From: Cellvibrio sp. UBA7671
Lineage (GTDB): Bacteria; Pseudomonadota; Gammaproteobacteria; Pseudomonadales; Cellvibrionaceae
Reading direction: 5' to 3'
Assembly: GCA_002483145.1 (NCBI GenBank)
Contig: DLHJ01000012.1
Location: 1-64,000, forward strand
Length of the DNA: 64,000 nt
In this document: positions 29,660 through 60,764 of the stretch, in pieces
Position numbering within the stretch: the first letter of the stretch is position 1
How the letters are laid out: every line of letters starts with the position of its first letter
Program-made: the position numbers and the translations under genes
The notes under the pieces: generated by a model
Database searches by the model: none
Told to the model about the DNA's origin: nothing
The model's input: only the letters and a program-made list of their open reading frames with translations

Positions 29660-30331
29660 TCAAAACGGACAATTACTTCGCCCGCATATTTTCTCCCCCG
29701 TCACCGGATGATCAAATTCAAGCGTTGTTGCGTGCAACATCAAACGTGGCGCCATCTGAAAAGCGTCTTCACTCGCATATAAATCACACCCCAAAATCGA
29801 ATGGCCGAGTTCGCGGCTGTGAATCCGCAATTGGTGTGTTCGACCCGATACCGGCGTAAATAACACCCGCGTGGTCGCTGGCGAACTATTGCGTTCGATT
29901 ACGGCGTAATGCGTTAACGCATTTTTCCCCGAATCAAAACAAATTTTTTGCAGCGGAAAATTGGGTGGATCTTTGGCGATAGGTAATTCAATGTGGCCGC
30001 TGTCTTGCTCGACATGGCCGTGCAGAAGCGCGGTATAGGTTTTGGTGATCGTCCCTGACTGAAATTGTTTGCCAATATGCGCGTTCACATATTTATTCAG
30101 TGCAACAACCATAATTCCCGAAGTGCCAAAATCAAGCCGATGCACAAGCGTCGCAGTGGGGAAATTTTTCACCAAACGAAAATGCACAGAATCTTTATTG
30201 AGCGGATTTTTCCCCGACAAACTCAACAAGCCGCCCGGTTTATTGATCAACAGTAAATGCTCGTCCTGAAATAAGATACTGATTTCATCAAGGCATGGCG
30301 GAGCAATGAAGGTGTCTAGTTTTACTTGCAT
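29660..30331 (-). CDS. rluA: RluA-family pseudouridine synthase
   Basis: A 223-aa single-domain RNA pseudouridine synthase. The catalytic Asp lies in HRLDFGTSG, with RTHQLRIHSRELGH as the second family signature. Its length and the lack of an S4 domain match RluA (23S U746 and tRNA U32) rather than RluC/RluD. It is the second gene of a two-gene minus-strand unit, 19 bp after the HAD gene. The exact target is inferred from size. Confidence 0.85.
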   Translation of the reverse strand: MQVKLDTFIAPPCLDEISILFQDEHLLLINKPGGLLSLSGKNPLNKDSVHFRLVKNFPTATLVHRLDFGTSGIMVVALNKYVNAHIGKQFQSGTITKTYTALLHGHVEQDSGHIELPIAKDPPNFPLQKICFDSGKNALTHYAVIERNSSPATTRVLFTPVSGRTHQLRIHSRELGHSILGCDLYASEDAFQMAPRLMLHATTLEFDHPVTGEKICGRSNCPF

Positions 30332-30350
30332 GATCTATCCATACGCAACC

Positions 30351-31160
30351 TTACAACACCCGCTCATATAAATATGTCGCCACACCATCTTTATGATGTG
30401 CTTGCGCACGCTGTGCAGTAGGAAATAACTGTTTGAGTTTTTCGCTCGCATTATCCATCACTATCGGATGAGCAACTGTCTGGAACATCTCCACATCATT
30501 AAAACCATCACCGAACGCCATGCTGTTGGCAAGTGGCCGTTGTAGATGTTCCATTAATGTTCTCAGTGCGTGGCCTTTGGAAATAGCCTGCGGCATAGCT
30601 TCCAGATAATATTCATCGGAAAACGTCAAATGAATTGGCAGGGTTAGCGCAGCCAGTATTTGCGTCTTGAGTTGTTGCAGCATTGCATTTTCACCGTAAA
30701 ACAAAATCTTTAATGCCGGTGTGGCGAGCATTTCTTGCAATGCAATTTGGCGATAAAAAAATTGCGATTGTGCGTGGGCATCCAACATGGATTCGCAGGG
30801 CGCATTCACCAGCCACTCGGAATCCGTATACATATTCAAATGCACACCACATTTTTCACCCAGCGGCAGCAAGATCTCATTCACCGCAAGCGGCAAACAG
30901 GCGCGCTGAATTAACTCACCCGCGCCGTTATGAATCATCGCACCGTTACAGGTAATCGTCGCAATTCCACCACCCAACTGTTTCAGGTAAGCGCGGATAT
31001 CCATAAAGTGCCTGCCAGTCGCGATAACCAGATGATGACCGCGCTCGCGCAGTTCATTTAATGCGCGAATCGTCAGCGGCGAAAGTTCGTGGTGTTCATT
31101 TAGCAGGGTGCCATCCATATCAAACACAAAGGTGCTGGGCGTTTGTGGTTTTTCAAACAT
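30351..31160 (-). CDS. HAD-IIB (Cof-type) phosphatase
   Basis: A 269-aa HAD hydrolase with FDMDGTLLN (nucleophile and acid/base Asp), a serine/threonine motif II in VIATGR, and the C-terminal FGDGFNDVEMF motif with an upstream lysine (KGHAL). The type IIB cap between them places it with Cof, YidA and YbhA sugar-phosphate or PLP phosphatases. Substrate unknown. It is followed closely by the pseudouridine synthase gene. Confidence 0.9.
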   Translation of the reverse strand: MFEKPQTPSTFVFDMDGTLLNEHHELSPLTIRALNELRERGHHLVIATGRHFMDIRAYLKQLGGGIATITCNGAMIHNGAGELIQRACLPLAVNEILLPLGEKCGVHLNMYTDSEWLVNAPCESMLDAHAQSQFFYRQIALQEMLATPALKILFYGENAMLQQLKTQILAALTLPIHLTFSDEYYLEAMPQAISKGHALRTLMEHLQRPLANSMAFGDGFNDVEMFQTVAHPIVMDNASEKLKQLFPTAQRAQAHHKDGVATYLYERVL

Positions 31161-31187
31161 TAAAAATTCCAGGGTAAAATGAGTGAT

Positions 31188-31232
31188 GTGTAGCCCAACC
31201 CCGCATTCCGCTGGGCTCTATGCGGGCTACAC
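31188..31232. repeat. REP-like palindromic element
   Basis: GTGTAGCCC (31188-31196) pairs with GGGCTACAC (31224-31232), with an alternative inner pairing CCCGCAT / ATGCGGG. The stop codon of the nucleotidyltransferase gene lies inside it. A related but half-complete copy is at 32537-32567. It is probably an interspersed REP-type element that can also end transcripts. Confidence 0.6.
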
Positions 31233-32003
31233 CATGTACCGTTTGAACAATTTATTCAACTGCTCAATATCGCCTTTGGTATCTACCTCAACGGGTTTAT
31301 GCTCTTCATAGTAGGCTAATGTATCTTCAATAAACCGATTGAGTGCTGGAATCGGTGCGGCAATTTCTTTTTCTTGACTAGACGTTTTGCGCTCAAGCAG
31401 AGCGGCGATTTCGTTTTTCAAAGATGTGTCGTCGGCAATCAGTTCGCATACCTTATGAAATTCAATCGGTGCAGGCAGATTCTTTTGCTCGATCCATTTG
31501 CAGGATAGAAGCGCGCGCAAGATATAAAAATATTTTTTAATAACAACCGTTTCGCCTTTGAAATGCTCACGATAATTGTTCTTTGCCATATGACGATAGT
31601 GATAAATCCCCTTAGCAGGTGAATACACATCCGGCAACAAGGCGCGCGCCGCAGGCGCAAATATCCCATCATCCACATACACAATAGGCGATTGCAGCCA
31701 CTCTACAATGCCGGGGTTTGATCGCCACAAAAGCTTTAACGCCTTACGAATATCCCAGCCATTAATATCAATCTCATCCACAATCGGATATTCAATGACA
31801 TCGCGTTTATCCTCCACGTCAATCGTCAAATACCAATCGCTTGGATGCGCATAAATAAAACGCACGTCAAAATCGCTATTCGGCGATGCAAAACCCCAGG
31901 CGCGGCTGCCGGACTCAATCGCGTACAACACTTTTACGTTGTGCTCTTGTTCAGCGGCTTTAATACGTTTCAGGATTTCGGTGTGGATGTGAGCGGGGAT
32001 CAT
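31227..32003 (-). CDS. YcgL/RlaP-type predicted nucleotidyltransferase
   Basis: A 258-aa protein of the DNA polymerase beta-like nucleotidyltransferase superfamily. The signature ESGSRAWGFASPNSDFDVRF has the GS...DxD metal-binding arrangement, and a helical C-terminal half follows. This is the PF10127-type family, found free-standing or near RNA repair genes; its substrate is not established. The ATG at 32003 is preferred since it leaves a short helix before the GS motif; a longer reading from 32060 is possible. It has no partner genes here. Confidence 0.8.
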   Translation of the reverse strand: MIPAHIHTEILKRIKAAEQEHNVKVLYAIESGSRAWGFASPNSDFDVRFIYAHPSDWYLTIDVEDKRDVIEYPIVDEIDINGWDIRKALKLLWRSNPGIVEWLQSPIVYVDDGIFAPAARALLPDVYSPAKGIYHYRHMAKNNYREHFKGETVVIKKYFYILRALLSCKWIEQKNLPAPIEFHKVCELIADDTSLKNEIAALLERKTSSQEKEIAAPIPALNRFIEDTLAYYEEHKPVEVDTKGDIEQLNKLFKRYMV

Positions 32004-32095
32004 AGAATCATTATTCACGTTTAAATGGGAAAGTGCAGCAGTGCAGATGACGTCAAGCATGATTTTACTTGAGGTCTAACGATTGGTTGTAAGCG

Positions 32096-32377
32096 TTATC
32101 TGCTGATCAATTGGAATAGAGAGCGCATACCGGCATCGCGCAGCGGAATCAATGCCTGATAATCCGGTGAATGATACCAGTCGGTTGCCTGTTCCCTGGT
32201 AGGAAATGCGAGGATGGCCTGCATCTCATAATCGGTGTTGCCGGACAGCGTTTCGAAAATGCCTCTAACCAGAAATTCACCACTGTACCTGGCCAGTGTG
32301 GCCGGTACTGCAGCGATGTATTGTTGCAGCTTCTCTTTATCGGTCGGGGTGAAATTGACGGTGATGTAAGCCGGCAT
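32096..32377 (-). CDS. DUF1330 small dimeric alpha-beta barrel protein
   Basis: A 93-aa protein whose pattern (MPAYITVNF at the start, FEAILAFP-like centre, WYHSPDYQALIPLRD) is typical of DUF1330. These are small ferredoxin-like dimers of unknown function. AGGAG lies 9 nt before the ATG. Confidence 0.85.
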   Translation of the reverse strand: MPAYITVNFTPTDKEKLQQYIAAVPATLARYSGEFLVRGIFETLSGNTDYEMQAILAFPTREQATDWYHSPDYQALIPLRDAGMRSLFQLISR

Positions 32378-32696
32378 TTTTGAAGCTCCTGCGGTTTGTA
32401 TGCCGGGGAATCATAACAGTAGACGCAACTCAAACCGGCAATTTGCCGATAAGATAATAGGCAATTGGACGATGGTCTATGCGGTCAATTCAGGTCTCAC
32501 CGCAATCTTCTGCAACTTACACGAGCGTACGCCAATCCCGCATTCCGTTAAACTCCATGCGGGCTACATGCTAAACCCTTATGTTTATGGGCGTGGCGGG
32601 CGATTGGCAGGTGGGTGGCGTCACCTAATTAACAACTCTTCAGGTAATTTGCTCCACATCAATTCACTTGGATGAATACACCTGGAGTAATGAAAG
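32378..32696. other. Intergenic stretch with half REP-like element
   Basis: No supported gene. It holds the CCCGCAT / ATGCGGG hairpin at 32537-32563 followed by CTAC, related to the element at 31188. The ribosome binding site GGAG for the next gene is near 32684. Confidence 0.5.
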
Positions 32697-33308
32697 ATGG
32701 ATATGAAAGCAAAATCGTCACTGATTAGAAAATACCGCACCGAGCGTTTATGGTCGCAAGAACAACTTGCCGAAATGACGGGACTTGGGCTGCGCACCAT
32801 CCAGCGATTGGAAGCGCGCGGCAGCGGCTCGCAAGAGTCGATCAAAGCCCTCGCCGCCGTTTTTAATGTAGAAGCCGATACATTGTTCTGGCGCGACGGT
32901 GCTTATCAGGCTTACAAACATAAGCAATGGGGCTTTGTTACCCTTGCCGGTATATCAATGGTTGCGGTATTGGTATTGGCGATTAATGATCTTGCCGTGG
33001 CGCTCCCTGCGGCAGGTATCGGCGTTCTGTTTGGTGTACTTACGCTGGTCGCGATTGCGTTCAGCTCCATGACCATCGAAGTCAACGAAAGCGAAATCAG
33101 TTGGTACTTTGGCCCCGGCCTATTCAAAAAGGGTTTGCCACTGGAAGAAGTTGGCCAATGCAAAAAAGTAAAAAATCCTATCTGGATGGGGTTCGGCATC
33201 CACGCCTACGGCACCGGCTGGATCTACAACGTCTCGGACTTGTTAGGAGTTGAAATCGAGTTGAAAGGCGGATCATTTATCCGCCTCGGCACCGACCAGC
33301 CCAATTAG
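32697..33308 (+). CDS. XRE-type HTH protein with two membrane helices
   Basis: A 203-aa protein. The N-terminal HTH (residues 8-60, WSQEQLAEMTGLGLRTIQRLE) is followed by two hydrophobic helices (about 78-120) and a C-terminal beta-rich domain resembling a PH-like fold. This layout suggests a membrane-tethered regulator. GGAG lies 9 nt before the ATG. No target site is evident. Confidence 0.75.
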   Translation: MDMKAKSSLIRKYRTERLWSQEQLAEMTGLGLRTIQRLEARGSGSQESIKALAAVFNVEADTLFWRDGAYQAYKHKQWGFVTLAGISMVAVLVLAINDLAVALPAAGIGVLFGVLTLVAIAFSSMTIEVNESEISWYFGPGLFKKGLPLEEVGQCKKVKNPIWMGFGIHAYGTGWIYNVSDLLGVEIELKGGSFIRLGTDQPN

Positions 33309-33504
33309 CTGATCCAGGCGATAGAAGATGCAAAGGACAATGTCGAATAAAACCAATACGTAGCCTGTATGGAGCCTAGCGAAATAAGGGAGCTTTTGAC
33401 GTTGATTTTACTTTTTTATTTCTTCCTCAAAAAAAGACAAACCCCGCTGCGGTTCATGATTTCGGTGTGGATTTGGGGTGGGATCACGTTAAGCTCCATA
33501 TGGG

Positions 33505-33729
33505 TTATTCAAACTCAAACAAACTTTTCGCGGGTACGTTCAAGGCGGTAGTGATTTTTTCCAAATTATCAAAGCTCGGTCCATGAATGCCGCGCTCTAT
33601 ATTGCTGATGGATTCGATAGTCAAACCCACCTTCTCGGCTAACTCTTCCTGGGTTAACCCACGGCTGCTACGAACTTGCTGTAAACGCTTACCAAATTGC
33701 TTCTTTAATGATGTGGATTCAGGTGTCAT
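33505..33729 (-). CDS. Small XRE family regulator, possible controller protein
   Basis: A 74-aa single-domain Cro/C1-type HTH protein (RSSRGLTQEELAEKVGLT then ESISNIERG). The ATG at 33729 is chosen for an AAGG about 9 nt upstream; an in-frame ATG at 33765 would start right beside the operator. Its size matches the C proteins that control restriction-modification loci, and it stands at the edge of the methyltransferase/Vsr island next to two strong operator-like repeats. The C-protein role is inference. Confidence 0.8.
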   Translation of the reverse strand: MTPESTSLKKQFGKRLQQVRSSRGLTQEELAEKVGLTIESISNIERGIHGPSFDNLEKITTALNVPAKSLFEFE

Positions 33730-33771
33730 GCGGGCAACCTTAAAGGATACGGAAGGTGCTTGCATCCTATT

Positions 33772-33811
33772 GAAGTTGAACTTCGGGTTTAACGAAGCTA
33801 AACTTCGGGTT
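33772..33811. promoter_or_regulatory. Double operator for the XRE regulator
   Basis: A perfect dyad GAAGTT-G-AACTTC (33772-33784) and a second dyad CGAAG-N5-CTTCG (33793-33807). An 11-bp direct repeat AACTTCGGGTT occurs at 33779-33789 and 33801-33811, exactly 22 bp apart (two helical turns). It sits between the divergent XRE gene and the small gene at 33855. Confidence 0.6.
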
Positions 33812-33854
33812 GTAATGCGTGATTGGCTGTGGGAACGGGGAATGGAGTCAGATT

Positions 33855-34082
33855 ATGAAAGAGCAGGCGAAAGGCGAACTAAACCTGAGCTTCCTTAGCA
33901 ACTACTTGCTGGAGGATGAAATCTATTTGCAGCTGGATAAGCTGCAAGCACTGGTTTCCCTGCAAACCCTGCTCAATACCGCTGAAACAACACCCACGCG
34001 CGCTCAACATTTGTATTACGCCATGACGGTAGAAGAGCAATTGGGAAAGCTGCGGGAGTTGGTAGATGAATTATTTCGATGA
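33855..34082 (+). CDS. Small acidic helical protein of unknown function
   Basis: A 75-aa protein, rich in Leu/Glu and predicted all-helical, without motifs I recognise. The start is well supported: GGAG sits 7 nt before the ATG at 33855. It is transcribed divergently from the XRE regulator across the double operator and ends 3 bp before the convergent vsr stop, so it is probably under XRE control and part of the island. Confidence 0.65.
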   Translation: MKEQAKGELNLSFLSNYLLEDEIYLQLDKLQALVSLQTLLNTAETTPTRAQHLYYAMTVEEQLGKLRELVDELFR

Positions 34083-34085
34083 TAT

Positions 34086-34559
34086 TCATTTTGATATTGT
34101 TGGGTGCAGGGTTTTTCCTTCAATTTCTGCAGACTGTGAATCATATAAAATCCAGTTCGCAGCAGTGTGAATTACCTCATTAAGATTGCGGCGGGTTTTG
34201 CCTTTTAACGCACATTCCCAAATCACCAAAACCCTCCAGCCCATCACAACACAAGCCTGAATATTTCGTTCATCGCGGATTTTATTTGCGCCTATCTTTT
34301 CTTTCCAAAACTCAACGCGGGTCGATGGCCATTTGAATATGTGGCAGCCGTGTGCGTGCCAGAAGCAGCCATTTACAAAAATTACGGCGTGATGCTTGGG
34401 GAAAACCAGATCAGGTTTTCCGGGAAGGTCTTTTCTGTGAAGCTGATAGCGAAATCCGAGCTTGTGCAGTCCCTTGCGAATGATAATTTCATTCCTGGTA
34501 TTTTTGTGCTTGATACCGGACATCATCGCGGAGCGCGTTGTTCTATCCACTATATCCAT
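34086..34559 (-). CDS. vsr: Very short patch repair endonuclease Vsr
   Basis: A 157-aa Vsr nuclease that nicks at T:G mismatches formed by deamination of 5-methylcytosine. Signatures are MDIVDRTTRSAMMSGIKHKNT at the N-terminus, GKPDLVF with the metal-binding Asp50, and GCFWHAHGCH (64-73). The ATG at 34559 is preferred to a TTG at 34568. Its presence beside a Dcm-type methyltransferase is the usual pairing: methylation and repair of its mutagenic by-product. Confidence 0.95.
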   Translation of the reverse strand: MDIVDRTTRSAMMSGIKHKNTRNEIIIRKGLHKLGFRYQLHRKDLPGKPDLVFPKHHAVIFVNGCFWHAHGCHIFKWPSTRVEFWKEKIGANKIRDERNIQACVVMGWRVLVIWECALKGKTRRNLNEVIHTAANWILYDSQSAEIEGKTLHPTISK

Positions 34560-34580
34560 TGCCGACAAACCATAATAATT

Positions 34581-34592
34581 GTATATTTATAC
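34581..34592. promoter_or_regulatory. Short inverted repeat upstream of the small island gene
   Basis: GTATA-TT-TATAC, 12 bp, lies in the vsr/34619 divergent gap. It may overlap a promoter element of either gene. Confidence 0.3.
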
Positions 34593-34618
34593 AGTGCTTA
34601 ATTAGGGAGGCTTTTATC

Positions 34619-34885
34619 ATGCAAGTTGCTTTAAAAAGTTGCGGTAATCCTGATCATGGACAAGACCCAGATAGAAAATATTATTTATGCGAGCCGAATA
34701 AAATAGTTGATGTTTCATCATACGCTGAGGCATCAAAAATATGTCGTGAGTTTATCGTTAAAAATGATTTGGGTGGCGGCAACTGGTCCGGCGGCCAAAT
34801 ATATATTAATGGTGAATACATAGCCAAAGTGAATTATGCAGGGATGATTCGCTCGATTGATGGAAGTGAAGTACTGTTCTCGTAG
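34619..34885 (+). CDS. Small protein of unknown function in the defence island
   Basis: An 88-aa protein with a very strong ribosome binding site (AGGGAGG, 8 nt before the ATG). It has two N-terminal cysteines (Cys10, Cys23), a third in ICREFI, and a Gly/Trp segment LGGGNWSGG. It looks like a compact alpha/beta protein; the pattern recalls a widespread uncharacterised family of small proteins, but I cannot name it. It lies between vsr (divergent) and the methyltransferase (same strand, 86 bp on). Confidence 0.7.
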   Translation: MQVALKSCGNPDHGQDPDRKYYLCEPNKIVDVSSYAEASKICREFIVKNDLGGGNWSGGQIYINGEYIAKVNYAGMIRSIDGSEVLFS

Positions 34886-34971
34886 TCTTTCGGCTAAAGT
34901 AAGTAAGGGCAGCCTGGATTTGCAGATTAATCCTGTTATTCTAGGCGCCTCATTTTTCTCTGTTTCCCTAT

Positions 34972-36534
34972 ATGTCCTCTCAAATCAAAATTATTGACCT
35001 CTTTGCCGGGCCTGGTGGTCTGGGCGAAGGCTTTTCTGCTTATAAAGATAAGAAAACGGGAAAACATCCATTTTCTATTGCTGTGTCTGTAGAGAAAGAA
35101 GCTAGTGCGCACCAAACATTGCAGTTGCGTTCATTCTTCAGAAAATTTCCTGATGGGCAGGTGCCTGACGAATACTATAAATATGTGAGTGGGCATCTTT
35201 CACGCAAAGCGCTTTTTGATGCTTTCCCGAAAGAGGCGAATGCAGCTAAAGAGGAAACACTTCATGAGCCACGCGCTTTAGGAGAGGACAACAAATATAT
35301 TCATGAACAAATAGAGTTCGCTTTGGCCAATCACAAGGGAAAGACAATTGTGATTGGTGGCCCACCATGCCAAGCCTATTCTCTTGTGGGGCGCGCAAGG
35401 AATATGGGTATTGTCGGTTATGAGGCCAAAAATGATCCCCGCCATTTTTTATATAAAGAATATTTGAATATCTTGTCGCGGGTTAACCCGGAAATATTCG
35501 TAATGGAAAATGTGAAAGGGATTCTTTCATCTACTGTAGATGGAGAAAAAATATTTCCTAAAATCCTGGATGATTTGAAGTGCCCCGGTAAAGCGATAAG
35601 CAAAAAAACTGGAAGCAAATATAGAATCTATTCCCTTGTGAAATCCGCAACAGACCCTGAAGATCCCGAGTACGAAGATTTTTCTGATTTCATTATTCGT
35701 GCAGAAGACTATGGGATTCCACAAGCTCGCCATAGAGTAATTCTTTTAGGTGTCAGAGAAGATATCAAAAATATTCCAAGTCAGCTGAGTACCAGTGATA
35801 AGGTAAATATTGAAAAAGTGATTGATGATCTTCCACCACTTAGAAGCGGTCTTTCAAAAGGTGGAGATAGCTACGAGAAGTGGCACGAAACCGTTGCCGA
35901 GATTGTAAAGAAATTGCCGTCCAAACTTAGAAAAAGCGAGCTCAAAGAGTTGGCTGGCAAAATCGCGCACTATTCTCCTGCAAGCATAGAGGTAGATCAT
36001 CGAGGCGGTCTGTCAATACCTGTAAGCCGTTCTGTTGTAAAAAGCATGCCCTCTGGCCTGAAGGATTGGTTTCACGATGCGCGATTAAAGTATGTTTTGA
36101 ATCACGAAACTCGCGGGCACATTGTTGAAGATTTGGAGCGGTATTATTTTTGCGCAAGTTTTGCGCGCGCATATCCTAATCGTGATAATCCTAACCCGAA
36201 ATCGCATGAGTTCCCGAAATTTCTGGCGCCCAACCATAAAAACTGGGAATCAGGAAAATTTTCTGATCGTTTTCGTGTGCAAGCGGAAGGGCGTTATGCC
36301 ACAACTATAACCAGCCACATTTCAAAAGATGGTCATTATTTTATTCATTATGATCCTTTGCAGTGTCGCAGCCTCACTGTTCGTGAAGCTGCGAGAATCC
36401 AAACCTTCCCCGATAATTACTTCTTTGAAGGGAATCGGACACAGCAATACGTTCAGGTTGGTAATGCTGTTCCGCCCTATCTTGCAAATAAAATATCAGA
36501 AATTGTTTATCAGCTAGCTAGGCAATTAGGATGA
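34972..36534 (+). CDS. DNA (cytosine-5) methyltransferase
   Basis: A 520-aa C5-cytosine methyltransferase. Motif I is DLFAGPGGLGEGF (9-21, SAM binding), motif IV PPCQ (131-134, nucleophile Cys133), motif VI ENV (179-181), motif VIII QARHRVILLG, and motifs IX-X are RIQTFPDNY and VGNAVPPYLA at the C-terminus. The stretch between motifs VIII and IX, which holds the target recognition domain, is long. No clear Shine-Dalgarno precedes the ATG. It ends 24 bp from the stop of the convergent AIPR gene. The probable role is self-marking for the opposing four-gene module; the recognition sequence is unknown. Confidence 0.96.
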   Translation: MSSQIKIIDLFAGPGGLGEGFSAYKDKKTGKHPFSIAVSVEKEASAHQTLQLRSFFRKFPDGQVPDEYYKYVSGHLSRKALFDAFPKEANAAKEETLHEPRALGEDNKYIHEQIEFALANHKGKTIVIGGPPCQAYSLVGRARNMGIVGYEAKNDPRHFLYKEYLNILSRVNPEIFVMENVKGILSSTVDGEKIFPKILDDLKCPGKAISKKTGSKYRIYSLVKSATDPEDPEYEDFSDFIIRAEDYGIPQARHRVILLGVREDIKNIPSQLSTSDKVNIEKVIDDLPPLRSGLSKGGDSYEKWHETVAEIVKKLPSKLRKSELKELAGKIAHYSPASIEVDHRGGLSIPVSRSVVKSMPSGLKDWFHDARLKYVLNHETRGHIVEDLERYYFCASFARAYPNRDNPNPKSHEFPKFLAPNHKNWESGKFSDRFRVQAEGRYATTITSHISKDGHYFIHYDPLQCRSLTVREAARIQTFPDNYFFEGNRTQQYVQVGNAVPPYLANKISEIVYQLARQLG

Positions 36535-36558
36535 ATAATATTTTGTCCGAGAAGTGGG

Positions 36559-38634
36559 CTATTTATAACCCTCCGCAACTAGCTGGTTATGAATTTGCCA
36601 AATTAAAAGGCATTGCTTTTCCGATGGCAACTTCAATGGTATGTGTGAAGCAACCTTCAACAAATCGAGCTGTTTAGGGATGAGTAAATTATTTTCTATG
36701 GCCCAAGTTCGCATTCGAGCCCACTCGCTGCCAGGAATACCTACCACCGAAATTTGTGCAGCAATGCTATTGTCCTCTTTCTGAGTATCACTGGCTTTTT
36801 TTAACTCATCTGTTACTTCACGAATATCTTGCAGTGAATTAAACATTTCTTTGGAGAGAGGGATGTTAAAATCTCTTATGTGATCCCAGCAAAGCTGCAT
36901 CTTTGCCCATTCAGTAACGTTATCTTTTGGGCGATCTTCATCTGTTAAAAGGACAAGCACATGCTTAGCAATAATTGCGATTTGATCCAGTACAAAACTA
37001 GAAACAGACTGTTTATCCCATATTGCACGCAAATCCATTTGCTTGCCAAGCGCTTGCTCTGAAATCATATTGTGTAGTTTGGCGAGTGTATAAGTTACTA
37101 TGTTTGCTCGATAGCCGCCCTGATACCATGCTTGCTTGCTGATTAATGCCTCAGTTTTACGAAACAATATGGCTAAGGCCACAATGTTTTTAAAATATTC
37201 TTCATTAAACTGAGATTCATCAGCAGCCCAATTCTTAGTAATAAGTTCAGAAAAATACAAGAAACTTTTTTGAGCACCTAAGCTAACCTTGTGTGGAAGC
37301 TCTTTCCAGGTATTTTGAAATTTAGCGATGTCTGTTTTTGTTAACATTTGTGCGCGCGGATTCTGATTTAAAAACTGCCTCTTCTGAGCCGGAGTTAATT
37401 TGGCTTGCTCATTTATATATTGCCCGCGTGCTCGTTCATAAAACCAATGGGTGCCATATTGAGTACCAATCACAGGAGATGTAAATATTCTGCGCGAGAA
37501 CTCTTCTAATCGAATATGGTAAGGATGGTTAGCAAAAAAATCAGCGTCACTTACTTTATTTTGACTATTAGCGTAACGCGCTATTTCTGGTATTAACTCA
37601 CCCGCTTTTTCAGAGGGTAAAACGGAGAGTTTCATCTGAACCATTACTAGAGTTAAGTCCATGGCATCCTTTTTCCCTGCCGATCCTCTTGCTGCAATTG
37701 CTAAAGATGCAGTGGTTTGACCGCCATTGACGATTTGCAAGTTTTTAGCACTTACAATTTTCAACCCAGATTCGGTTTTTTCAATCTCAACATCCTCCGC
37801 TGTTGCAGCGATACCATTATTATAAGCAAAAAACATTTCTGGCTGATTGCGAATGGTGACCTGAATTTTGGCGTTAACCTTGCCCTTTGTACTTAGGAAA
37901 GTTCGAACATTTCCCTCTAGCAACCTACTACCATATTTTTCATAAACTTGAGCTAAGCTGATACCAGGAATCATACATAGGTATGCTTGATATTCACCCT
38001 TTGATTCGGCTGCTTTAAGGCAGGGTAGCCCTCCACCAAACTCATTAAAATCTACTATTAGTTCATCACGGCCCGTCGCTGATATATATGCGGTATGAAA
38101 TCTCGAAATATCCCATATGTGAAATTCCGTTCCCACGCCATTTAAGTGTTCCTCAGGCCAGTCCTTTGCTCTGGTTTTTAATAGTCCATCACTCGCCAAA
38201 TAGAAACGGTATTTCGTAATCTTTGAATGTAGATCCATTAGGTCACACGCGAAACCATACGCTGGCTGACTTTCTTCTATTGAACCATCAGACAACTTAC
38301 CTTTTAACGCCTCCTCAACAAATGCGCGCAACATTCCAAATGCTTTTGTTACATCAGCTGTATTAAAAGTAGGCGCATCATCCTCGTTTGAATAATCTAC
38401 AATCAAAAGCGCTAGACTGTTATCTGCTTCATCAAAAGAATAGCCGTCTAGTTTTAACTTTGTTCGGCCTATAACTCCTTCAAACCTGCAAATCTCAAAA
38501 TCACTAAACTCTTCGGCATCTGAAAGACGCTGCCCTACATCTTCAACAAATTCAACACGATTAAAATCGAGGTTCGTTTCTGCCCGCACCCTGACATTTT
38601 CTAACAAATCTTTTCTGAATTCTTCAAGAGTCAT
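36559..38634 (-). CDS. AIPR family protein (abortive infection phage resistance)
   Basis: A 691-aa AIPR-domain protein. The hallmark core is seen near residues 230-310: YGSRLLEGNVRTFLS, then NPEMFFAYNNGIAATA-like and IVNGGQTTASL segments. GAGGGA gives a good ribosome binding site, and the gene begins 9 bp after the DUF4420 stop as the last gene of the GHKL-Z1-DUF4420-AIPR operon. AIPR proteins were grouped with phage resistance and restriction-modification loci; their biochemical activity is uncertain. In this context it is a probable effector or sensor. Confidence 0.9.
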   Translation of the reverse strand: MTLEEFRKDLLENVRVRAETNLDFNRVEFVEDVGQRLSDAEEFSDFEICRFEGVIGRTKLKLDGYSFDEADNSLALLIVDYSNEDDAPTFNTADVTKAFGMLRAFVEEALKGKLSDGSIEESQPAYGFACDLMDLHSKITKYRFYLASDGLLKTRAKDWPEEHLNGVGTEFHIWDISRFHTAYISATGRDELIVDFNEFGGGLPCLKAAESKGEYQAYLCMIPGISLAQVYEKYGSRLLEGNVRTFLSTKGKVNAKIQVTIRNQPEMFFAYNNGIAATAEDVEIEKTESGLKIVSAKNLQIVNGGQTTASLAIAARGSAGKKDAMDLTLVMVQMKLSVLPSEKAGELIPEIARYANSQNKVSDADFFANHPYHIRLEEFSRRIFTSPVIGTQYGTHWFYERARGQYINEQAKLTPAQKRQFLNQNPRAQMLTKTDIAKFQNTWKELPHKVSLGAQKSFLYFSELITKNWAADESQFNEEYFKNIVALAILFRKTEALISKQAWYQGGYRANIVTYTLAKLHNMISEQALGKQMDLRAIWDKQSVSSFVLDQIAIIAKHVLVLLTDEDRPKDNVTEWAKMQLCWDHIRDFNIPLSKEMFNSLQDIREVTDELKKASDTQKEDNSIAAQISVVGIPGSEWARMRTWAIENNLLIPKQLDLLKVASHIPLKLPSEKQCLLIWQIHNQLVAEGYK

Positions 38635-38643
38635 TTTGGTCCC

Positions 38644-39615
38644 TCAATTATCATCGGTTGGTTTTATTTGATACTTTTCACAATCTGAAATATTAATCTC
38701 ATATCTTACGTTAGAAATTCCGGTGGGTAACATTGCACTGGTTATACAAGGGAATCCTTCAGAGACCTCGTACTTAGCGACATTGTTGACTTTATACTTA
38801 AAGTCATCGTATTCACTTCTTGGCATATAGCCGGTACAACTTAATCTTTCCTCGAACAAATCGCATGCATCAATATCGTGTTGTAATGAAGATTTTATTT
38901 CTTCCACTAAACTATTAAGTGAAAATGAATTAGCTTCATCCAAACTATAGGTTTGGAAAAGCTCAATAATCACTAAGTAAATCGGCGATTTGCAAATTTG
39001 TAACTGAAGCTCAGAGGAAATGAAAACATTCTTGGCCGCAGGCCTAATTGTTTTTATTTCCCAAGAACATTCGTCAGTCTGAAAATCCTGAGGTGCGTCA
39101 AAAGGGCCAACCCATGACTTTAGTGCGGCATTTACTCCCAAATCCGTAAACAATTTTTTCAAAAAAATTAATTCTCCCCATAATCCTCTTACTTCATTCT
39201 CGCTTAATAAATTTAAACTATCACGTTTCAGTAATAGTCTCCAATAAGACAGCCGGCGTAAAATCGCCAATAAAGCGTCTTCTTCCGAACCGAAAAATTT
39301 TTTTGAAAAACCGATTAAATCAGCACAAAAAAGAGAAAACATTGGTTCTAGAGTGGGATTCTCCAGTGTCAATACGAACGCCCAAGTCTCATCTTCACGT
39401 GAATAGGATTTAATTTTAATTACCCTCATACTTTTAACAGTAGGTGGGCGAGATTTCACTACAAGCATTAGGACTCTATGGTTTTCAACACTCTTACCTA
39501 TATAAAATCTTAAAGGATGAGTCTTATCAAATAATTGAAATACAGAATCCTCAATGCCCAAAGGAAATGAATCCCACCTATTAGATAAATCTTCATGCAC
39601 AGGATTCATCCTCAT
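38644..39615 (-). CDS. PD-(D/E)XK motif protein (DUF4420)
   Basis: A 323-aa predicted restriction-like nuclease. The N-terminal helix carries RGLWGELIFLKKL, which holds the family glutamate. The SWEIKT segment supplies the E-x-K of a PD-(D/E)XK active site, after the GPFDAPQDFQ region that should hold the preceding Asp. It overlaps the Z1 gene by 23 nt, so the two are co-translated. It is the best candidate for the DNA-cutting subunit of the island. Confidence 0.85.
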   Translation of the reverse strand: MRMNPVHEDLSNRWDSFPLGIEDSVFQLFDKTHPLRFYIGKSVENHRVLMLVVKSRPPTVKSMRVIKIKSYSREDETWAFVLTLENPTLEPMFSLFCADLIGFSKKFFGSEEDALLAILRRLSYWRLLLKRDSLNLLSENEVRGLWGELIFLKKLFTDLGVNAALKSWVGPFDAPQDFQTDECSWEIKTIRPAAKNVFISSELQLQICKSPIYLVIIELFQTYSLDEANSFSLNSLVEEIKSSLQHDIDACDLFEERLSCTGYMPRSEYDDFKYKVNNVAKYEVSEGFPCITSAMLPTGISNVRYEINISDCEKYQIKPTDDN

Positions 39616-42355
39616 CTAACTCCTCATCCTCTATAGGATCGTACTCAACTTCGTTTGGCAGTAAGTTACGCAATTCAACCAGATTAATTCTATAGGTGAA
39701 ATTTTCACCTCCATTTTTCAGGGCTGGAAATATTAAACCTACAGCAACCATAAACTTACATCTTTCAGGAAGAGGCACGGCTTGGTCACTTCCCTTTTCA
39801 TAGGGTTCTAATAGATACAATAGAAGCAGTGGTTTTTTCCGCTGTTTCCGATATGCTTTTCCTGAAATGGTTTTTTCTTTATTTTCTGGTTCTGATCTAA
39901 ATTCCGTTTCAGCGATTCCAATATCAGTGACAGATAACCCTATTTTTTCATGAGAGCTGTCACCTAAACGTCGCTTGCTACCACCCACCAAATATGATCG
40001 TGATATAGAGTCCAGCGTTACTTGTCTTTGTAATGCGTTGATAGAAAAACCACCCAAAAACTCTTGAAAATCAACTTGACCGCGTGGAAATGCAATATCC
40101 CAATAGTCAAGAATGTCTTCTCCTGATTTTCTTATAAAATTAGCAATTACTTTGGAAGGAAATCTAGTATCAAGTGGATGAGATAAATATCGTTCCAAAA
40201 AATCGGCAACAATATTTTTTGGAATTTCCTTCCAAAAAGGAAATTTTTCATCATCACGATTATTTGAATGTACTTCAATCAATTGTTGAGTTAAGTTCTC
40301 TGTTACAACGTAATTCCTAAGAATTACATCTGCCTCAGATGACAAACGTGTAGTTTCTTTCAGTTCATTACTAATATTAATTGAACCAGTTATTTCTTCA
40401 GAATCACGCATTTTATTTCTTGCAGTAATTAATAACGCTTCTGGGTGAGCGCGAACTCTCAATCCCACGTCTACGGGCTTAAGTCTTGAGTTTTGCATTT
40501 GGCGAATTGCATCTCTAAGCTCATCCGCAGCTATAGCAATATACGAGTACCAATCACTTGATGTATCTGAAATCCATATTCTAAATAGATCTTCGTATCC
40601 GGTACGATATCCAAACCATCTTCCCATTTGTAATAAGGCATCATACATTTGTGTTCTTCGATAAAAGTAACTAACACAAAGCCCTTCTAGAGTTATTCCT
40701 CTCGCAAGACTATTACCACCCACTGCAATGACTCTAAGTCCACTTTCTCCGTAAATTGAATAGTCTAAACTTGCGGCTCCCGATTTTTGATTTACAGTGC
40801 GCATTTGAATTGACAAAGATGAAGCCGCTAAAGTCGATTTCACATCATCCCAAGAAACCCCGGCGCCAGCATATTCTTTTAAATAAATGCTATGTAATGC
40901 GAGCATCGTAGAATTTTTTTGTGAATCTGTATCACTAAGCATGGAGTAATGTCTAATGTCTTCTTGTATTCTTCGCAAAATTCCATCAAGAATGTCTGCT
41001 ACTTGATTTTGAATATTCGTATAGTGCGTAATATTGACAAGCATAGATCTATGTTTCGGTGAGTTGCTTCGTAAATCCATAATCGCATTTACAACCACAA
41101 AACAATGCATAGCGATAATCAATGAATTCGGAACCTCAGTTATAACGCCATCGGCCCCTACCCCTTTACTGGTATTGTTGTCATTACTCACTTCGCCAAA
41201 AATGGCTTCGGCATCATCAATACTTTTCAAATGTTTCGGATTTGACTCTTCGCCGAAAATTTTGGTCGCGCCAAAATAATTTGTAGGAGCATCAAGTGTA
41301 TAAATAAAATCACGAGGAAATAGGTCATCCCCTAACATGTCGTTTGTTGTGTCAGGATTAATAAATACATTAGCGAATGGTGTTGCAGTAAATCCAATAT
41401 AACTTGAGCGAGGAAAGACATTTAATAAATTCCTTATGCTCGCATTAATTGCAGTAGCTTTTTTGGGATTGGTGTTGACAGAAGCATTGTCTGCTTCATC
41501 GTCAATTAGCAAAAGAGGGAGATTTATCTTGCCTGCATTATTGGCATTATATGTCGTTAGCCAATTTGTAAGGTTTTCCAATATTCGTTTGTTTTTCTTA
41601 ACGACTAACAATACGGGATCACTATAGTTTTTTAATTTAAAGCCGAGCTGATTCGCTGTAACTTCTTTGAAATCAGACATGGTAGATGTGAAAACACCAG
41701 CATCTCTATCAGGATTAATCAGCCCCACCCCAACAAGCCTACGCTGACGTGTACGATTAACAATCCCCGCACTTTCTAACCCTACAAAACCAGAATCTAA
41801 TCGTTCCTGTGTTTGACGACGCAAGCTTTCTAAAGTACCTGTAAGTAGAATGACGAGCTTATATCCTGCATCAGCAGCCTTACAAATTAGTCCAGTATAA
41901 TTAGAAGTTTTACCGGATTGCACATCTCCCATAACCAATCCGCGCTTGGACCATCCTGATTCATTGAATGGATCACCAACTCGATCCAGAATCTGATCCG
42001 TTACTTTATCAAGGGAATCGACTACTGGATGCGGCCATCCCTGACGAAGCAAATCACTTTTATATCGTCCCCAATAAAAAGGATCTATTTCGGCTTTCCT
42101 CGCCAGAAGCCAAGGAGTCGAATTGTCCTCCACGCAACTCCCTAAACCCATGTAAATAGTTAGACTTTCATGCAAACGCATTATTATCTGATCGTACTCG
42201 TCATCCGTTATCCAATAATTAGGAATGACACGTAATGCACTAGCGAGTGTTACAATTTCACTTTCCATTGGAATTTTATTTTTGAAATATATACGAATGT
42301 TTTCTTCCAGCTTTACCCCATTTTCGGACAATTCGGTTATTTTTTTATTCTTCAT
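39593..42355 (-). CDS. Z1 domain superfamily II helicase/translocase
   Basis: A 920-aa protein. SF2 motor motifs are Walker A GDVQSGKT (143-150), Walker B LLLIDDEADN, motif III GFTATPFAN, and a motif VI-like QMGRWFGYR. The C-terminal part contains the Z1 domain. It likely moves along or remodels DNA and couples recognition to cleavage. Its end overlaps DUF4420 by 23 nt and its start overlaps the GHKL gene by 11 nt, indicating a single stoichiometric module. Confidence 0.9.
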   Translation of the reverse strand: MKNKKITELSENGVKLEENIRIYFKNKIPMESEIVTLASALRVIPNYWITDDEYDQIIMRLHESLTIYMGLGSCVEDNSTPWLLARKAEIDPFYWGRYKSDLLRQGWPHPVVDSLDKVTDQILDRVGDPFNESGWSKRGLVMGDVQSGKTSNYTGLICKAADAGYKLVILLTGTLESLRRQTQERLDSGFVGLESAGIVNRTRQRRLVGVGLINPDRDAGVFTSTMSDFKEVTANQLGFKLKNYSDPVLLVVKKNKRILENLTNWLTTYNANNAGKINLPLLLIDDEADNASVNTNPKKATAINASIRNLLNVFPRSSYIGFTATPFANVFINPDTTNDMLGDDLFPRDFIYTLDAPTNYFGATKIFGEESNPKHLKSIDDAEAIFGEVSNDNNTSKGVGADGVITEVPNSLIIAMHCFVVVNAIMDLRSNSPKHRSMLVNITHYTNIQNQVADILDGILRRIQEDIRHYSMLSDTDSQKNSTMLALHSIYLKEYAGAGVSWDDVKSTLAASSLSIQMRTVNQKSGAASLDYSIYGESGLRVIAVGGNSLARGITLEGLCVSYFYRRTQMYDALLQMGRWFGYRTGYEDLFRIWISDTSSDWYSYIAIAADELRDAIRQMQNSRLKPVDVGLRVRAHPEALLITARNKMRDSEEITGSINISNELKETTRLSSEADVILRNYVVTENLTQQLIEVHSNNRDDEKFPFWKEIPKNIVADFLERYLSHPLDTRFPSKVIANFIRKSGEDILDYWDIAFPRGQVDFQEFLGGFSINALQRQVTLDSISRSYLVGGSKRRLGDSSHEKIGLSVTDIGIAETEFRSEPENKEKTISGKAYRKQRKKPLLLLYLLEPYEKGSDQAVPLPERCKFMVAVGLIFPALKNGGENFTYRINLVELRNLLPNEVEYDPIEDEELDEDESCA

Positions 42356-43826
42356 TACTCTCTATCTCCTTTACGATTTTTCTAGTGATTTCGAGATTTT
42401 TATTAAACGGTTCTATTAAGTGGAGGCTAGCTAAAAAATTAGCTCTGAACTCTTTATCCATTCCAGATAATGAGAATAAACTTTTTGCCATGTCTCGCAA
42501 TCGATTCTCTATATTTTCCTCATTTGGTGTTGCACGTACGTCTGACGCCATTCTTGAATATAGAGCTTCGGATGGAAAAGTACTTTCAATTGCATTTAGC
42601 ACACTATCAAATGAATGCTGTTGATTTTTTATAAGCGTACGGTAAAAACTTTTTATTATTGGGTGATCTCTATTAATGTCAAATCTAACACCATCTCTAT
42701 TAAGTACCTCGTGCCAGCCAGGCATTACATCGCCTTTTTCTATATTACGTCCACGAAAAACTATTGTTCGCCCACTTACATGTCTTATTCGCTCAATAGT
42801 TCTTCGTAAATTTGCGCGAACGATTTCTGGAGGAAAGGCTGCGGATTTTTTTACATCTAAAGTCCATAAATGATCCAGCGTATTGGGTATATCAACTCGA
42901 ATACGAGCCAATTTGCTCAATTCATCTTTTCTAGCAAGTCGAAACCAGGTACCCCAAATTATTAGTCGACGATTACGATAGATATAAAAACCTTGCAAAC
43001 TACGTAATCCTAAATTCCCTCCCGCCTGATCGACTTCTGACTGACTAAGCTTACTTGCATGCGGAAGGATAAATGGCTTAACTACAACTTTATGGCCTTC
43101 AACCTTAAAGCTATCTTCATCGAGATGCTGTGTAGCCGTATGATCAGAAAGAAAAGGATCTATAGATGGTAAAGCAAGATTATTTATTGAAATTGAAATG
43201 CGAGAGCGACCATGTTCAGAGCTAATAAACCTGTGGAAAACCAATGCCAAGTGGTTTCGAGCAATATCCATTTGCTCTCCCATTGCAGACTCCAGAGAAC
43301 TTTCGCCTGCGGCCAACCTATCGAGCTGCTGCCAATGCACTATTGTTCCTGTTCCCCATGCTTGTAAGTCTGCTACGTGAGGCATTTTGAAAATCTCATT
43401 TTCCTCTAGTTCTAACATGACCCAAGCTTTCTTCGTCAATATGACATCCAAGTCCCAACAAAAAGCAGCTAGCGAACCGTTTTTCATCAAGGAAATAACA
43501 GTCATTCGTCGGCATTGTGAAAGGGATGATGTTTTCAGCCCTAACCCATAGCGACCAAGATCATCAATATCGCGAATTTGGAGTGGATTGGTGCTGCCGT
43601 GTCGCATAGCATTCGCTAAGGTTTCTCTGGACATTCCAATACCGTTATCGACAACCGCAATATATGGGTCATCGTCATATGGTCGAAATTCTATTTTTAT
43701 CTGCTTTGCTTTAGCTGAAATACTATTATCAATTAGATCTGCTAATGCGGACTCTAAGGAATAACCTATTGATCGCATGGACTCGAGTAGAGACGAAGCG
43801 TGAGGTGGGTTTTCGATTTCTTTCAT
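42345..43826 (-). CDS. GHKL ATPase, MORC/MutL-like
   Basis: A 493-aa protein with a complete GHKL ATP-binding fold at the N-terminus: N box ALADLIDNSISA (27-38), G1 DNGIGM (60-65), G2 GRYGLGLKTSS (91-101). An S5-like transducer region and a C-terminal helical part follow. It is closer to the prokaryotic MORC-like ATPases than to MutL itself, since it has no endonuclease or MLH-type C-terminal motifs that I can see. It is the first gene of the four-gene operon. ATP-driven dimer clamping on DNA is the family mechanism and the likely role here. Confidence 0.88.
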   Translation of the reverse strand: MKEIENPPHASSLLESMRSIGYSLESALADLIDNSISAKAKQIKIEFRPYDDDPYIAVVDNGIGMSRETLANAMRHGSTNPLQIRDIDDLGRYGLGLKTSSLSQCRRMTVISLMKNGSLAAFCWDLDVILTKKAWVMLELEENEIFKMPHVADLQAWGTGTIVHWQQLDRLAAGESSLESAMGEQMDIARNHLALVFHRFISSEHGRSRISISINNLALPSIDPFLSDHTATQHLDEDSFKVEGHKVVVKPFILPHASKLSQSEVDQAGGNLGLRSLQGFYIYRNRRLIIWGTWFRLARKDELSKLARIRVDIPNTLDHLWTLDVKKSAAFPPEIVRANLRRTIERIRHVSGRTIVFRGRNIEKGDVMPGWHEVLNRDGVRFDINRDHPIIKSFYRTLIKNQQHSFDSVLNAIESTFPSEALYSRMASDVRATPNEENIENRLRDMAKSLFSLSGMDKEFRANFLASLHLIEPFNKNLEITRKIVKEIESNEE

Positions 43827-44141
43827 CTGTCATCCAACTGACTATAAATTTTTAATTAGGTAAGCGCGTCCGAATTAGTCACGTTCGCATTCCTCATGGA
43901 GGCTTTTTCATTTGGTTGAATATTCATTATTCTTATATTCCATCGCTCCTTTTAGGCAACGATTCTCTACTATAGCCGAAGATTTGTGAAATACATCGCA
44001 TTACATGAGGGGAATTTGTAAGCCAAAAGCCATTGCTTTTTAAGTCATAACGGGAGGGATTGGTTTGAAAACTACTGGATTTGTATAGTCTGCCTATACA
44101 AATCCACCAAAACTTAAACCATCTAATAATTCCCTCCCCAT
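43827..44141. other. Upstream region of the defence operon; island edge
   Basis: No supported gene in 315 bp. It should contain the GHKL operon promoter, which I cannot place. It holds the strong inverted repeat at 44077-44105. Confidence 0.4.
44077..44105. repeat. Perfect 12-bp inverted repeat
   Basis: GGATTTGTATAG and CTATACAAATCC separated by TCTGC. It lies 37 bp after the DUF924 stop, so it could end that transcript, but no T tract follows on the minus strand. An operator or an insertion scar at the island boundary are alternatives. Confidence 0.5.
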
Positions 44142-44678
44142 CTAAAACCCCGACCCCGGCTCCTTCAAAAACTCAATCTCCTCCTGCGTTGATTCCCTGC
44201 CAAGAATCTCATTGCGATGCGGATAGCGGCCAAATCGGTTAATGATGGTTTGGTGTCGAAGCTCAAAATCCAGATTATTTTCCATCCCCGGTGCGCTAAA
44301 TAACATCACGGCTACTTTATGGATTTCTGCGGATTCGCTGTGCATAAACGGCAGGTAGAGAAAACTGCGTTCCGTGGGAGACAAGGCTTTATCGGCGTCT
44401 ACGGCCAGTGCTTCTTGCGCGAGTGCCAAGGCTAATGAGTCATTGGCGAAGGCTTGGGGAGTATCGCGGAAGATATTGCGGGAGAATTGGTCGAGGATAA
44501 TGATTTCTGCCAGGCGCCCTTTTGCGGCCATGCGCCAATCAAATAATTCGCAGCGAGTTGCTTGGTTATGAATAGCGGAAAAGCGTTGTTTAATTTGCTC
44601 GTCCAACTTTTCATCTTTTGCCCACCATTGCGCCGGGGTGAGTTCGTTAAACCAGAAATTGAGAATGTCTTCGTACAT
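44142..44678 (-). CDS. DUF924 family protein
   Basis: A 178-aa all-helical protein. Typical DUF924 features are FWFNELTPAQWWAKDEKLD at the N-terminus, LAEIIILDQFSRNIFR in the middle and LPFMHSE. The fold is TPR-like; function unknown. It stands alone just outside the defence island. Confidence 0.9.
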   Translation of the reverse strand: MYEDILNFWFNELTPAQWWAKDEKLDEQIKQRFSAIHNQATRCELFDWRMAAKGRLAEIIILDQFSRNIFRDTPQAFANDSLALALAQEALAVDADKALSPTERSFLYLPFMHSESAEIHKVAVMLFSAPGMENNLDFELRHQTIINRFGRYPHRNEILGRESTQEEIEFLKEPGSGF

Positions 44679-53027: not shown

Positions 53028-53238
53028 GGTCAATATCGTATTGGTATTTATCCAGGGCGCATGGATGTGAAAACATGCGCCCTTGCGTATACCCACTCGG
53101 ATCGGCATGCTCATCCGAAACGGGTGTGCTAGCATTTGCACCCGGCAGCCACCGCGGTTAATCACCATTCTGCCTCTTGTATCCCGAATAAATTCTTTGT
53201 TTTCTCAGCTTGTTGATTCCTTATGGAAGGGGTTTTGT

Positions 53239-56200
53239 ATGTCTGGAAGTTTCTCGCGCATTTTCCTGAGTAGCTTATTAAGTCTTGCACTGGTCGCCTG
53301 TGGCGGTGGTGGCGGCGGCGGGGGATCTAAACCCACTCCACCGGTAGACACTGACGGCGACGGCTATGCCGATACCCGCGATGCGTTCCCCAGTGACCCT
53401 AAAGAGTGGCTGGACACCGATAAAGACGGTGTAGGCGACAATGGCGATGCCTTTCCTAATGACGCGACTGAAACCAAAGACACTGACAAGGACGGCGTTG
53501 GCGACAACAAAGATGCGTTCCCGAGTGACGCCAGCGAAACCGTGGATACCGATAAAGACGGAAAGGGCGACAATGCCGATCCCGATCCTCTGGGGCAGGC
53601 TATCCCAGCCTGGCCGACGCATCAGGGTAACAGTCACCACAACGGGTATGTGGATGTGACCCTTGCCCCAGCCAACTTCAAAACGCGCTGGGAAAAGCCA
53701 ATAGAATTGGCGAGCCTCAACCAGGGCGCTGCTGGCGATGGTTATATCTTCTTCAATAATGCCGGCCAACTCTATGCTGTGGATGCACGCACAGGGACTA
53801 CCCTGTGGACGCAATCCATTGCGGGCACACACAATTTTAGTGTGTACAACCCGCCCGCTTACGCCGACGGGATTGTCTATGTGCAAACCGGCGGCCATGC
53901 CGATGCGTTTCTATGGGCATTTAATAGTGCTGATGGCCGCTTGTTATTCAAGACCCAGTTGGAAGACCAGTGGAGCAATCACTATGCGCCGACCGTTGTG
54001 GACAATATTGTCTATATCGGCGGTGGTTACTATGGTGGTATGTACGCTATAGACGCTAAAACCGGCGCGCAAAAATGGTGGCAAACCCTTAACCAAACCG
54101 ATCAGTTTACACCCGCTGTCAGCGGTGACTATGCCATCGCCTACACCAGCGGTTATTCACCCCGATTGACCGTCGCCAACAAAACCTCAGGCAATGTGGC
54201 GTTTGAAATTGACGACCCGGATGCCCAACACTGGGGCGGAGGCATGAACTTGGCGCCGGTAGTCGCGGGCGACCTGGTACTTGCCAACCATGCCGGCCGG
54301 GTAGTGGCGTTTAATCTGGCCAGTAAAACCCGTGTCTGGCAGATGAAAGCGGAATTTAGCGGCGATCCTGTCATCAGGGGCGAGCATTTTTATATCGTCA
54401 ATAATACCGCCATTGAAGTGCGCAAACTGAGCGACGGCAGTCTGGTATCCAGCATCCCGGGCGCGGCTACCTTTACCAGTAACCTGGTACTCACCAACAA
54501 CCTGTTGTTTGTCAGCGATAACCAGAATACCTACGCTTATCAAGTGGATAGCGGCGCTCTGGCCTGGACCCTCAACGGTGTCAAAGGCAAGCTGCTGGCA
54601 GCAGAAGGTGCACTGGTTGTATTTGGCAGCACGGGCATTGTCACGCTCGATCTGGAGGGTGACATAGATATCGACGGCCTGCCCGACTGGTGGGAAAAGC
54701 GCCTTAAAAAGAACGTCAATGCCACCGGCGATAGTGACAATGACGGCTTGACCGGCCTGCAGGAATTCGCGCTCATGACTAATCCCAATCTAGCGGATAC
54801 CGATAGCGACGGCCTGACCGATGGCGAAGAAGTCACCGCCAAGAGCGCCCCATTAATTGCCGATAGCGACGCTGACGGCCTACTCGATGGCGCGGAAGTA
54901 AAAACCCACAATAGCGCCCCCGATAAGGCCGATTCGGATGAGGATGGCCTCACCGATGGCGAAGAGGTAGCGGCCGGACTCAACCCGACCAACAGTGCTG
55001 ACGCCCTGCAAGACAGCGATGGCGATGGCTACTCTAACCTCCATGAAGTGCACGCCAACACCAGTATCAGCGATGCCAACCAACGGCCCGAGATAGCTAA
55101 CTGGTCCATGCCCGGCGGCACCAGCATGGGCAACAATTACATTCCCCTGCTGTTAGACGAGAGTAAATTCAGCGAGCGCTGGAGTAAAACCAGCCCGGTT
55201 TCACTGGCCACTGCGCCTGTCGCCACCAGCCAGCGTTTGGTGGCGCGCATCAACAACCAGTATCAATTGTGGGATACCGGCACAGGGCAAGAAACCGGGA
55301 CCACCGCCATCACCAATAATGGCCTCTCGCTACCCGCTAGCAGCGGCGACAAGCTGGTTTTCTTATCCCAGAGCACCAATAGCGGTACCAACCTCCAGGT
55401 ATTTAATGCCAACTCGGGCGCCAGCCTGCTTAACAAAGAACTTAGCTCGGCCGGGTATCTCTCAGTCAACCAACCACTGGTGCGTGGCAATACACTCTAT
55501 TTGGCCAATTCCAGCCGCAGCTTTAAGGCCTACAACCTGGATACTGGCGATCTGCTCTGGACCAGCGGTTTAAGCAACGGCTTTTTCGCTACCGACTGGC
55601 GCCCTCTGGTATCGGCTAAACATCTGGTGGGGCTGAGCAGCAATACCCTGGTGGTTTACTCCGCACAGGACGGCACCCTGCTCAGAAACATCAGCCTGCC
55701 CGCTAATAGCTATTTGCAGACCACAGTGCTCGGCAGCCGCGACAATATCCTGATGCAACTGGGCGGCACCCAGTTGGCCAGCGTCAGCCTCACCGATGGT
55801 AGCAATCAGTGGAGCAACAGCAGCTGCAACAGCGCCAAACTCGCGCTGGGCAATGGCAAAGTCTATGCCCTGACCGAGCAAAAACTCTGTGTGCTCGACG
55901 AGCAAACCGGCCGCTTGCTGTGGGAAATGCCCGTCAGCAACAGCTGGCAGGGGTCCAACCCGGTACTGACCGCCAACCATCTCTTTTACTCGGATAGCGC
56001 CACTACCTATGCCATCGACCTGCGCACCCGGCAGGTAATCTGGTCGATTAACAAACCCGCCCGTTATCTGGCGATGGACGACCATGGCACCCTGTTTATT
56101 CAGGATACTTTTGCGCTTACCGCCATCGACACGCTGGGCGATACCGATGCCGATGGCATTTTGCAGTGGTGGGAGCGCCGCTACGGTGGCAACCTGCAAG

Positions 56201-59922: not shown

Positions 59923-60013
59923 TCACGCACCGCGCGACCCATGTTTCCGATCCACTGGGCATCCCTAACAAGGGTTTTTATAAAAGATAAATAGTTTATT
60001 TTTTTTGAAAAAT

Positions 60014-60044
60014 AAAAAACCGATCCCACAAGGATCGGTTTTTT
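60014..60044. terminator. Rho-independent terminator
   Basis: AAAAAACCGATCC pairs with GGATCGGTTTTTT around a CACAA loop, 91 bp after the giant gene. Confidence 0.92.
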
Positions 60045-60160
60045 TGTTTTAGAGGTAGGAATAATAAAGCAGTGATAAATCAAACATAAAAATAGGTTGC
60101 GTTTGTAAATAATACATCGCCGTATTGTTGTGATCACCCAAGATCAGGCACAGCCGCAGG

Positions 60161-60204
60161 TGCTTCGCGAAGCAGGTTTTTTTTACCGCAGTCGCTTGTT
60201 ATAC
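60161..60204 (-). repeat. Partial attC site of cassette 3
   Basis: On the minus strand R'' is GTATAAC (60198-60204), followed by AAGCGACTG, identical to the attC of cassette 2. A 14-bp palindrome TGCTTCGCGAAGCA (60161-60174) follows. No R' box GTTRRRY could be found further left, so the array end is degraded. Confidence 0.65.
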
Positions 60205-60216
60205 ATTTTTTTGGAA

Positions 60217-60660
60217 TTACTTAATATAGGGTTTGGCGAAAGTAAATGCATGTTCAGTTGGTCCGTGTTCCTCAAGATGGAGCAGTCTTGCCTCACCCTC
60301 TCTAACAGTAGGTATATGCCCAACAGGAACATGCCAAAGAACTTGATGAGGTGTATTCATTTTATGAAACCATTCATTCTTGCCACGAATTAATTCTACA
60401 TGAACAGACTTATAAACGTAATTTCTTAAAGCCTCAATATTCTCCCAAACGCTCATATTCAATATAAGACTTGGGTCATCAAATATTTTAAATGACGTAG
60501 CGTCACCTTCTTCAGTTTGTAACCGCCAGACAAACCCAAGCGAATCATCTGCTAACGCATTAATTTCATTCAAACGATCAACGAATCCCTTCATAACAAT
60601 AGAGGTAAGTTCATCTTTAGCTTTTGCAATATTGAGCTGAGCTAAGTGAAAATGAGACAT
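60217..60660 (-). CDS. DUF3291 protein (integron cassette 3)
   Basis: A 147-aa protein with DUF3291 features: FHLAQLNIAKAKDEL at the N-terminus, then FVWRLQTEEGDATS, LILNMSVWEN and YKSVHVELIRGKNEWF. It is a ferredoxin-like fold of the monooxygenase/dimeric barrel group, function unknown. It lies entirely within a cassette, with its stop 12 bp before the R'' box. Confidence 0.85.
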   Translation of the reverse strand: MSHFHLAQLNIAKAKDELTSIVMKGFVDRLNEINALADDSLGFVWRLQTEEGDATSFKIFDDPSLILNMSVWENIEALRNYVYKSVHVELIRGKNEWFHKMNTPHQVLWHVPVGHIPTVREGEARLLHLEEHGPTEHAFTFAKPYIK

Positions 60661-60705
60661 AATTAGATTTTCCCTAAATTGATATTAAATGCTGCGGAAA
60701 GATTT

Positions 60706-60764
60706 GTATAACGTTAAGATTTGCGGCGCAGGTATTGATTTTTTAACACAGTCGCTTGTTAGAC
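60706..60764 (-). repeat. attC site of cassette 2 (59 bp)
   Basis: Minus-strand R'' GTCTAAC (60758-60764) fits RYYYAAC. R' GTTATAC (60706-60712) is one base off GTTRRRY. The stop codon TAA of the cassette gene lies in R'', a usual economy. The inner AAGCGACTG is shared with the cassette 3 site. Confidence 0.8.

Follow-up and report, generated by a model that had tools for sequence, protein, structure and literature searches.

What is a DNA methyltransferase to the conserved genes beside which it lies: a fixed partner, a passing neighbour or an interchangeable part? The question is posed by a locus in Cellvibrio sp. UBA7671 (contig DLHJ01000012.1, positions 1 to 64,000, the whole of which is here called the window). 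The locus belongs to a known kind: it is an intact, horizontally acquired system of the Mza type (MzaB-C-D-E) with a 5-methylcytosine (5mC) methyltransferase (MTase) and Vsr, and without MzaA. What is new in this comparison is exchange of the MTase module, as comparison of related sequences suggests that the MTase behaves as a plug-in between systems. A literature search, mostly of titles and abstracts, found no published report of such exchange; nor did it find a published mechanism for Mza-type systems, in keeping with a first-pass annotation of this DNA, to whose knowledge none had been worked out.

The four core genes occupy the minus strand with overlaps of 11 nt (MzaB/MzaC) and 23 nt (MzaC/MzaD) and a 9-nt gap (MzaD/MzaE); the MTase gene is convergent with them, 24 nt separating it from the AIPR gene (window coordinates throughout):

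42345..43826, minus strand: MzaB-like GHKL/MORC ATPase, 493 aa (Pfam HATPase_c_3 1.1e-31; PADLOC MzaB 4.5e-83)
39593..42355, minus strand: MzaC homologue (PADLOC MzaC 5e-136)
38644..39615, minus strand: MzaD-like PD-(D/E)XK nuclease, DUF4420, 323 aa (Pfam DUF4420 3.3e-57; PADLOC MzaD 4.2e-17)
36559..38634, minus strand: MzaE-like AIPR protein, 691 aa (Pfam AIPR 8e-98, AIPR_N 9e-40; PADLOC MzaE 1.8e-96)
34972..36534, plus strand: C5-cytosine DNA MTase, 520 aa (Pfam DNA_methylase 3.2e-46; best PADLOC model DrmMII 2e-96)
34619..34885, plus strand: 88-aa gene between vsr and the MTase gene
34086..34568, minus strand: Vsr mismatch endonuclease (Pfam Vsr 5.5e-27; solved Vsr 1cw0 2.5e-37)

The coordinates thus bear out the genes, overlaps and gap that the annotation had named, and profile searches bear out its domains; its interpretation as a whole is supported in part.

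Across 126 member loci, the same gene order was sought, as the annotation had proposed, and B-C-D-E proved invariant in all 113 with the four genes called. Nor is the core mostly without a methyltransferase in other genomes, the finding that the annotation had reckoned would tell against it: an MTase is present in 117/126 loci, at a median of 67.5 bp from the core, and Vsr in 77/126. The MTase may stand up- or downstream, in four arrangements (38/37/20/6 of 101 loci), and its variable orientation and distance mean that it forms no fixed operon with the core. Gene trees tell the two apart, with distances of 0.31-0.39 between one core gene and another and 0.79-0.82 between core and MTase. The window locus is itself a mosaic, its core Pseudomonas-like and its MTase and Vsr like those of a congener; the MTase is 82% identical to that of locus L009, and Vsr is 76% identical to a Vsr adjoining an EcoRII restriction-modification (R-M) system in a congener. 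The family role of Vsr is repair of the T:G mismatch left by deaminated 5mC. The 88-aa gene has no NCBIfam match and no relative among 136 loci.

Published systems are compared here on selected sections of the papers describing them. With mzaABCDE (Gao 2020), taken as Miller 2022 describes it and as PADLOC and NCBIfam model it, the window shares four homologous proteins, B-C-D-E, in the same order, but it is without MzaA and has MTase and Vsr attached. No gene for MzaA, a sigma-factor/ankyrin protein upstream of MzaB, lies beside the window MzaB; a genome-wide search with the MzaA-like protein of L117 yielded four hits at 26-33% identity, each of them to the sigma part at the C-terminus of that protein, and MzaA-like proteins stand beside the core in 6/126 member loci. 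The locus matches the putative defence system that Miller 2022 (PMC9523054) calls 'Type II', except that the transcriptional regulator there has no conserved counterpart here (a nearby XRE gene looks like a separate cassette) and that DNA-repair endonucleases, tied there to Type I, are represented here by a Vsr accompanying a Type II-like set. It also matches the third type of MORC R-M operon of Iyer, Abhiman and Aravind 2008 (PMC2292703); the annotation had pointed to work of the Aravind group grouping GHKL/MORC, Z1, DUF4420 and AIPR proteins with methyltransferases. Common to the window and that operon type are the MORC motif GhXhhpXXRhl, an SF2 helicase with a QMGRWFG-type C-terminal domain, an E-D-ExK nuclease, cytosine MTase, Vsr and AIPR; in their motif DThhQXuRhFG the window has Ala instead of Thr. 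Those authors proposed DNA looping, and the sections compared hold no analysis of module exchange. The CglI and NgoAVII R-M systems (PMC4267653) have a PLD-B3 nuclease where the window has DUF4420, with site GCSGC and three genes without MORC or AIPR. Pin25611FIII of Prevotella intermedia (PMC5608340; site GCWGC), an orphan MTase according to its authors, is compared on its published description.

Are the parts likely to work? All four GHKL ATP-binding motifs are present in the window MzaB (N-box, DNGIGM, GRYGLGLK, GTGT), with N34, D60, G62, G96 and K98 conserved among relatives; its MORC motif, GFYIYRNRRLI, fits the Iyer 2008 pattern for the S5-like domain, the motif G and R being kept in 123/123 relatives. 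The nuclease residues E148, D177, E186 and K188 all occur in 118/118 relatives, and MTase residues C133, E179, R253 and R255 in 117/117.

The core would carry out ATP-dependent restriction of DNA lacking the methylation mark, with an exchangeable modification module alongside it and with AIPR as a reader linked to the modification side. Judged from sequence, restriction of unmarked DNA together with an exchangeable module is, taken whole, the probable state of affairs; that AIPR is the reader is a tentative proposal, AIPR being the core protein that tracks the MTase best, within most clades though not every one. Systems of the Mza type occur widely, and the sections of Iyer 2008 compared (PMC2292703) trace the MORC silencing proteins of eukaryotes back to prokaryotic operons of this sort. 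Should the MTase be a plug-in for which AIPR serves as adaptor, MORC clamps would be tied to the reading of DNA-methylation state, with a bearing on the eukaryotic family too, and the question would become whether restriction is tied to a site that the core holds, to AIPR or to the MTase.

Several observations weigh against restriction of unmarked DNA with an exchangeable module. At N-box residue 30 MzaB has Asp, where MORC3, PMS1 and PMS2 align with Glu, the general base; Asp is found in 118/123 relatives and the other 5 have gaps, making the change family-wide, and it may entail weak ATP hydrolysis. The literature passages compared make no mention of it. All four core proteins miss the NCBIfam Mza equivalog cut-offs (B 332.5/850, C 519.2/1500, D 103.4/420, E 409.7/1050 bits), and L098 has an intact core with no C5 MTase within its flanks. 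Then there are pairs with similar cores and different MTases: L117/L132 (core 86-93% identical, MTase 42%, the L117 MTase not adjacent to the core), L115/L129 (74-84%, 40%) and L032/L053 (70-79%, 25%), where L053, whose contig ends just upstream of its core, may have had a second MTase there. Such pairs are not what a classical R-M system, with a nuclease that must know the MTase's site, would predict; exchange of the MTase against a similar core argues against the core having a fixed site. No clear break matching the MTase change was found in these cores, and AIPR, 70-87% identical in the three pairs, was not switched wholesale.

Might the core owe its sequence specificity to the MTase protein itself, on the pattern of BREX or type I enzymes, a swap then re-targeting a generic engine? 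An exchangeable MTase, a conserved core with no swap-specific break, and AIPR as possible docking partner would all suit this, and it merits a place as a minority possibility. However, a C5 MTase can usually act unaided; both M.CglI and M.NgoAVII are active as isolated proteins (PMC4267653, sections compared), and MTase orientation and distance vary.

Unlikely is that MTase and Vsr are an independent neighbour in a defence hotspot, an orphan MTase or a remnant of another R-M system, with the core recognising a cue unrelated to absent methylation, phage replication intermediates for instance. The strong disagreement of gene trees, the varied MTase placement, L098 and the naming of canonical Mza without an MTase (Miller 2022, PMC9523054, in the sections compared) speak for it; against it, the MTase is present in 117/126 loci at a median of 67.5 bp from the core, congener locus L010, with a truncated nuclease gene and AIPR gone, lacks the MTase too, and in most clades AIPR varies along with MTase identity.

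That AIPR is a HEPN abortive-infection toxin is improbable despite its name, the N-terminal HEPN domain described for it (PMC3506569, in the part consulted) and a PADLOC AbiU match (4.6e-22), since no Rx4-6H pair is conserved in 117 sequences (any within the first 180 residues in 45/117), the conserved residues are mostly central (NNG, NGGQ, ER), and covariation with the MTase is unexpected for a stand-alone toxin. The annotation had offered 'sensor or abortive effector' for AIPR; the proposal here is a reader.

The island sits in a defence hotspot (29660-44678) beside a DUF924 gene and near HAD/pseudouridine-synthase genes; five congener hotspots (L010, L013, L134, L135, L144) hold differing R-M or helicase/nuclease cargo. 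Its remaining features are:

33505..33765, minus strand: XRE/HTH regulator
33855-34082: 75-aa gene, divergent from the XRE gene
43964..44045, no strand: conserved noncoding element of 60-70 bp at the island edge
44142..44678, minus strand: DUF924 gene, hotspot flank (Pfam DUF924 2.2e-65)

The annotation had set vsr, the XRE gene and two small genes beside the MTase; all are present, but XRE and the 75-aa gene (33505-34082) are judged to be a separate small genus cassette and not part of the Mza system, the pair recurring in L013 and L134 without the core. Between them, at 33772-33811, are repeated operator-like palindromes, GAAGTTGAACTTC and GAAGCTAAACTTC. The noncoding element, without an Rfam match, has one match per genome in 8/21 genus genomes, its own included, and lies at the hotspot edge in several; four copies (L010 6161-6230, L134 6803-6864, L135 14517-14577, L013 7409-7469) were aligned with that of the window. 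A regulatory role is conceivable for it, as is one in attachment or recombination.

Near the hotspot, at 31227-32060, lies a gene of the RlaP family (RNA repair pathway DNA polymerase beta family), found in 7/21 genus genomes including this one. Elsewhere the window encodes a bacterial alpha-2-macroglobulin-like protein (1886 aa, 12701-18361) and, at 53083-59922, a PQQ-propeller/TSP3 protein of great length (2279 aa), and has a second AT-rich stretch at 60000-63000 (G+C 38-40%) with few long open reading frames.
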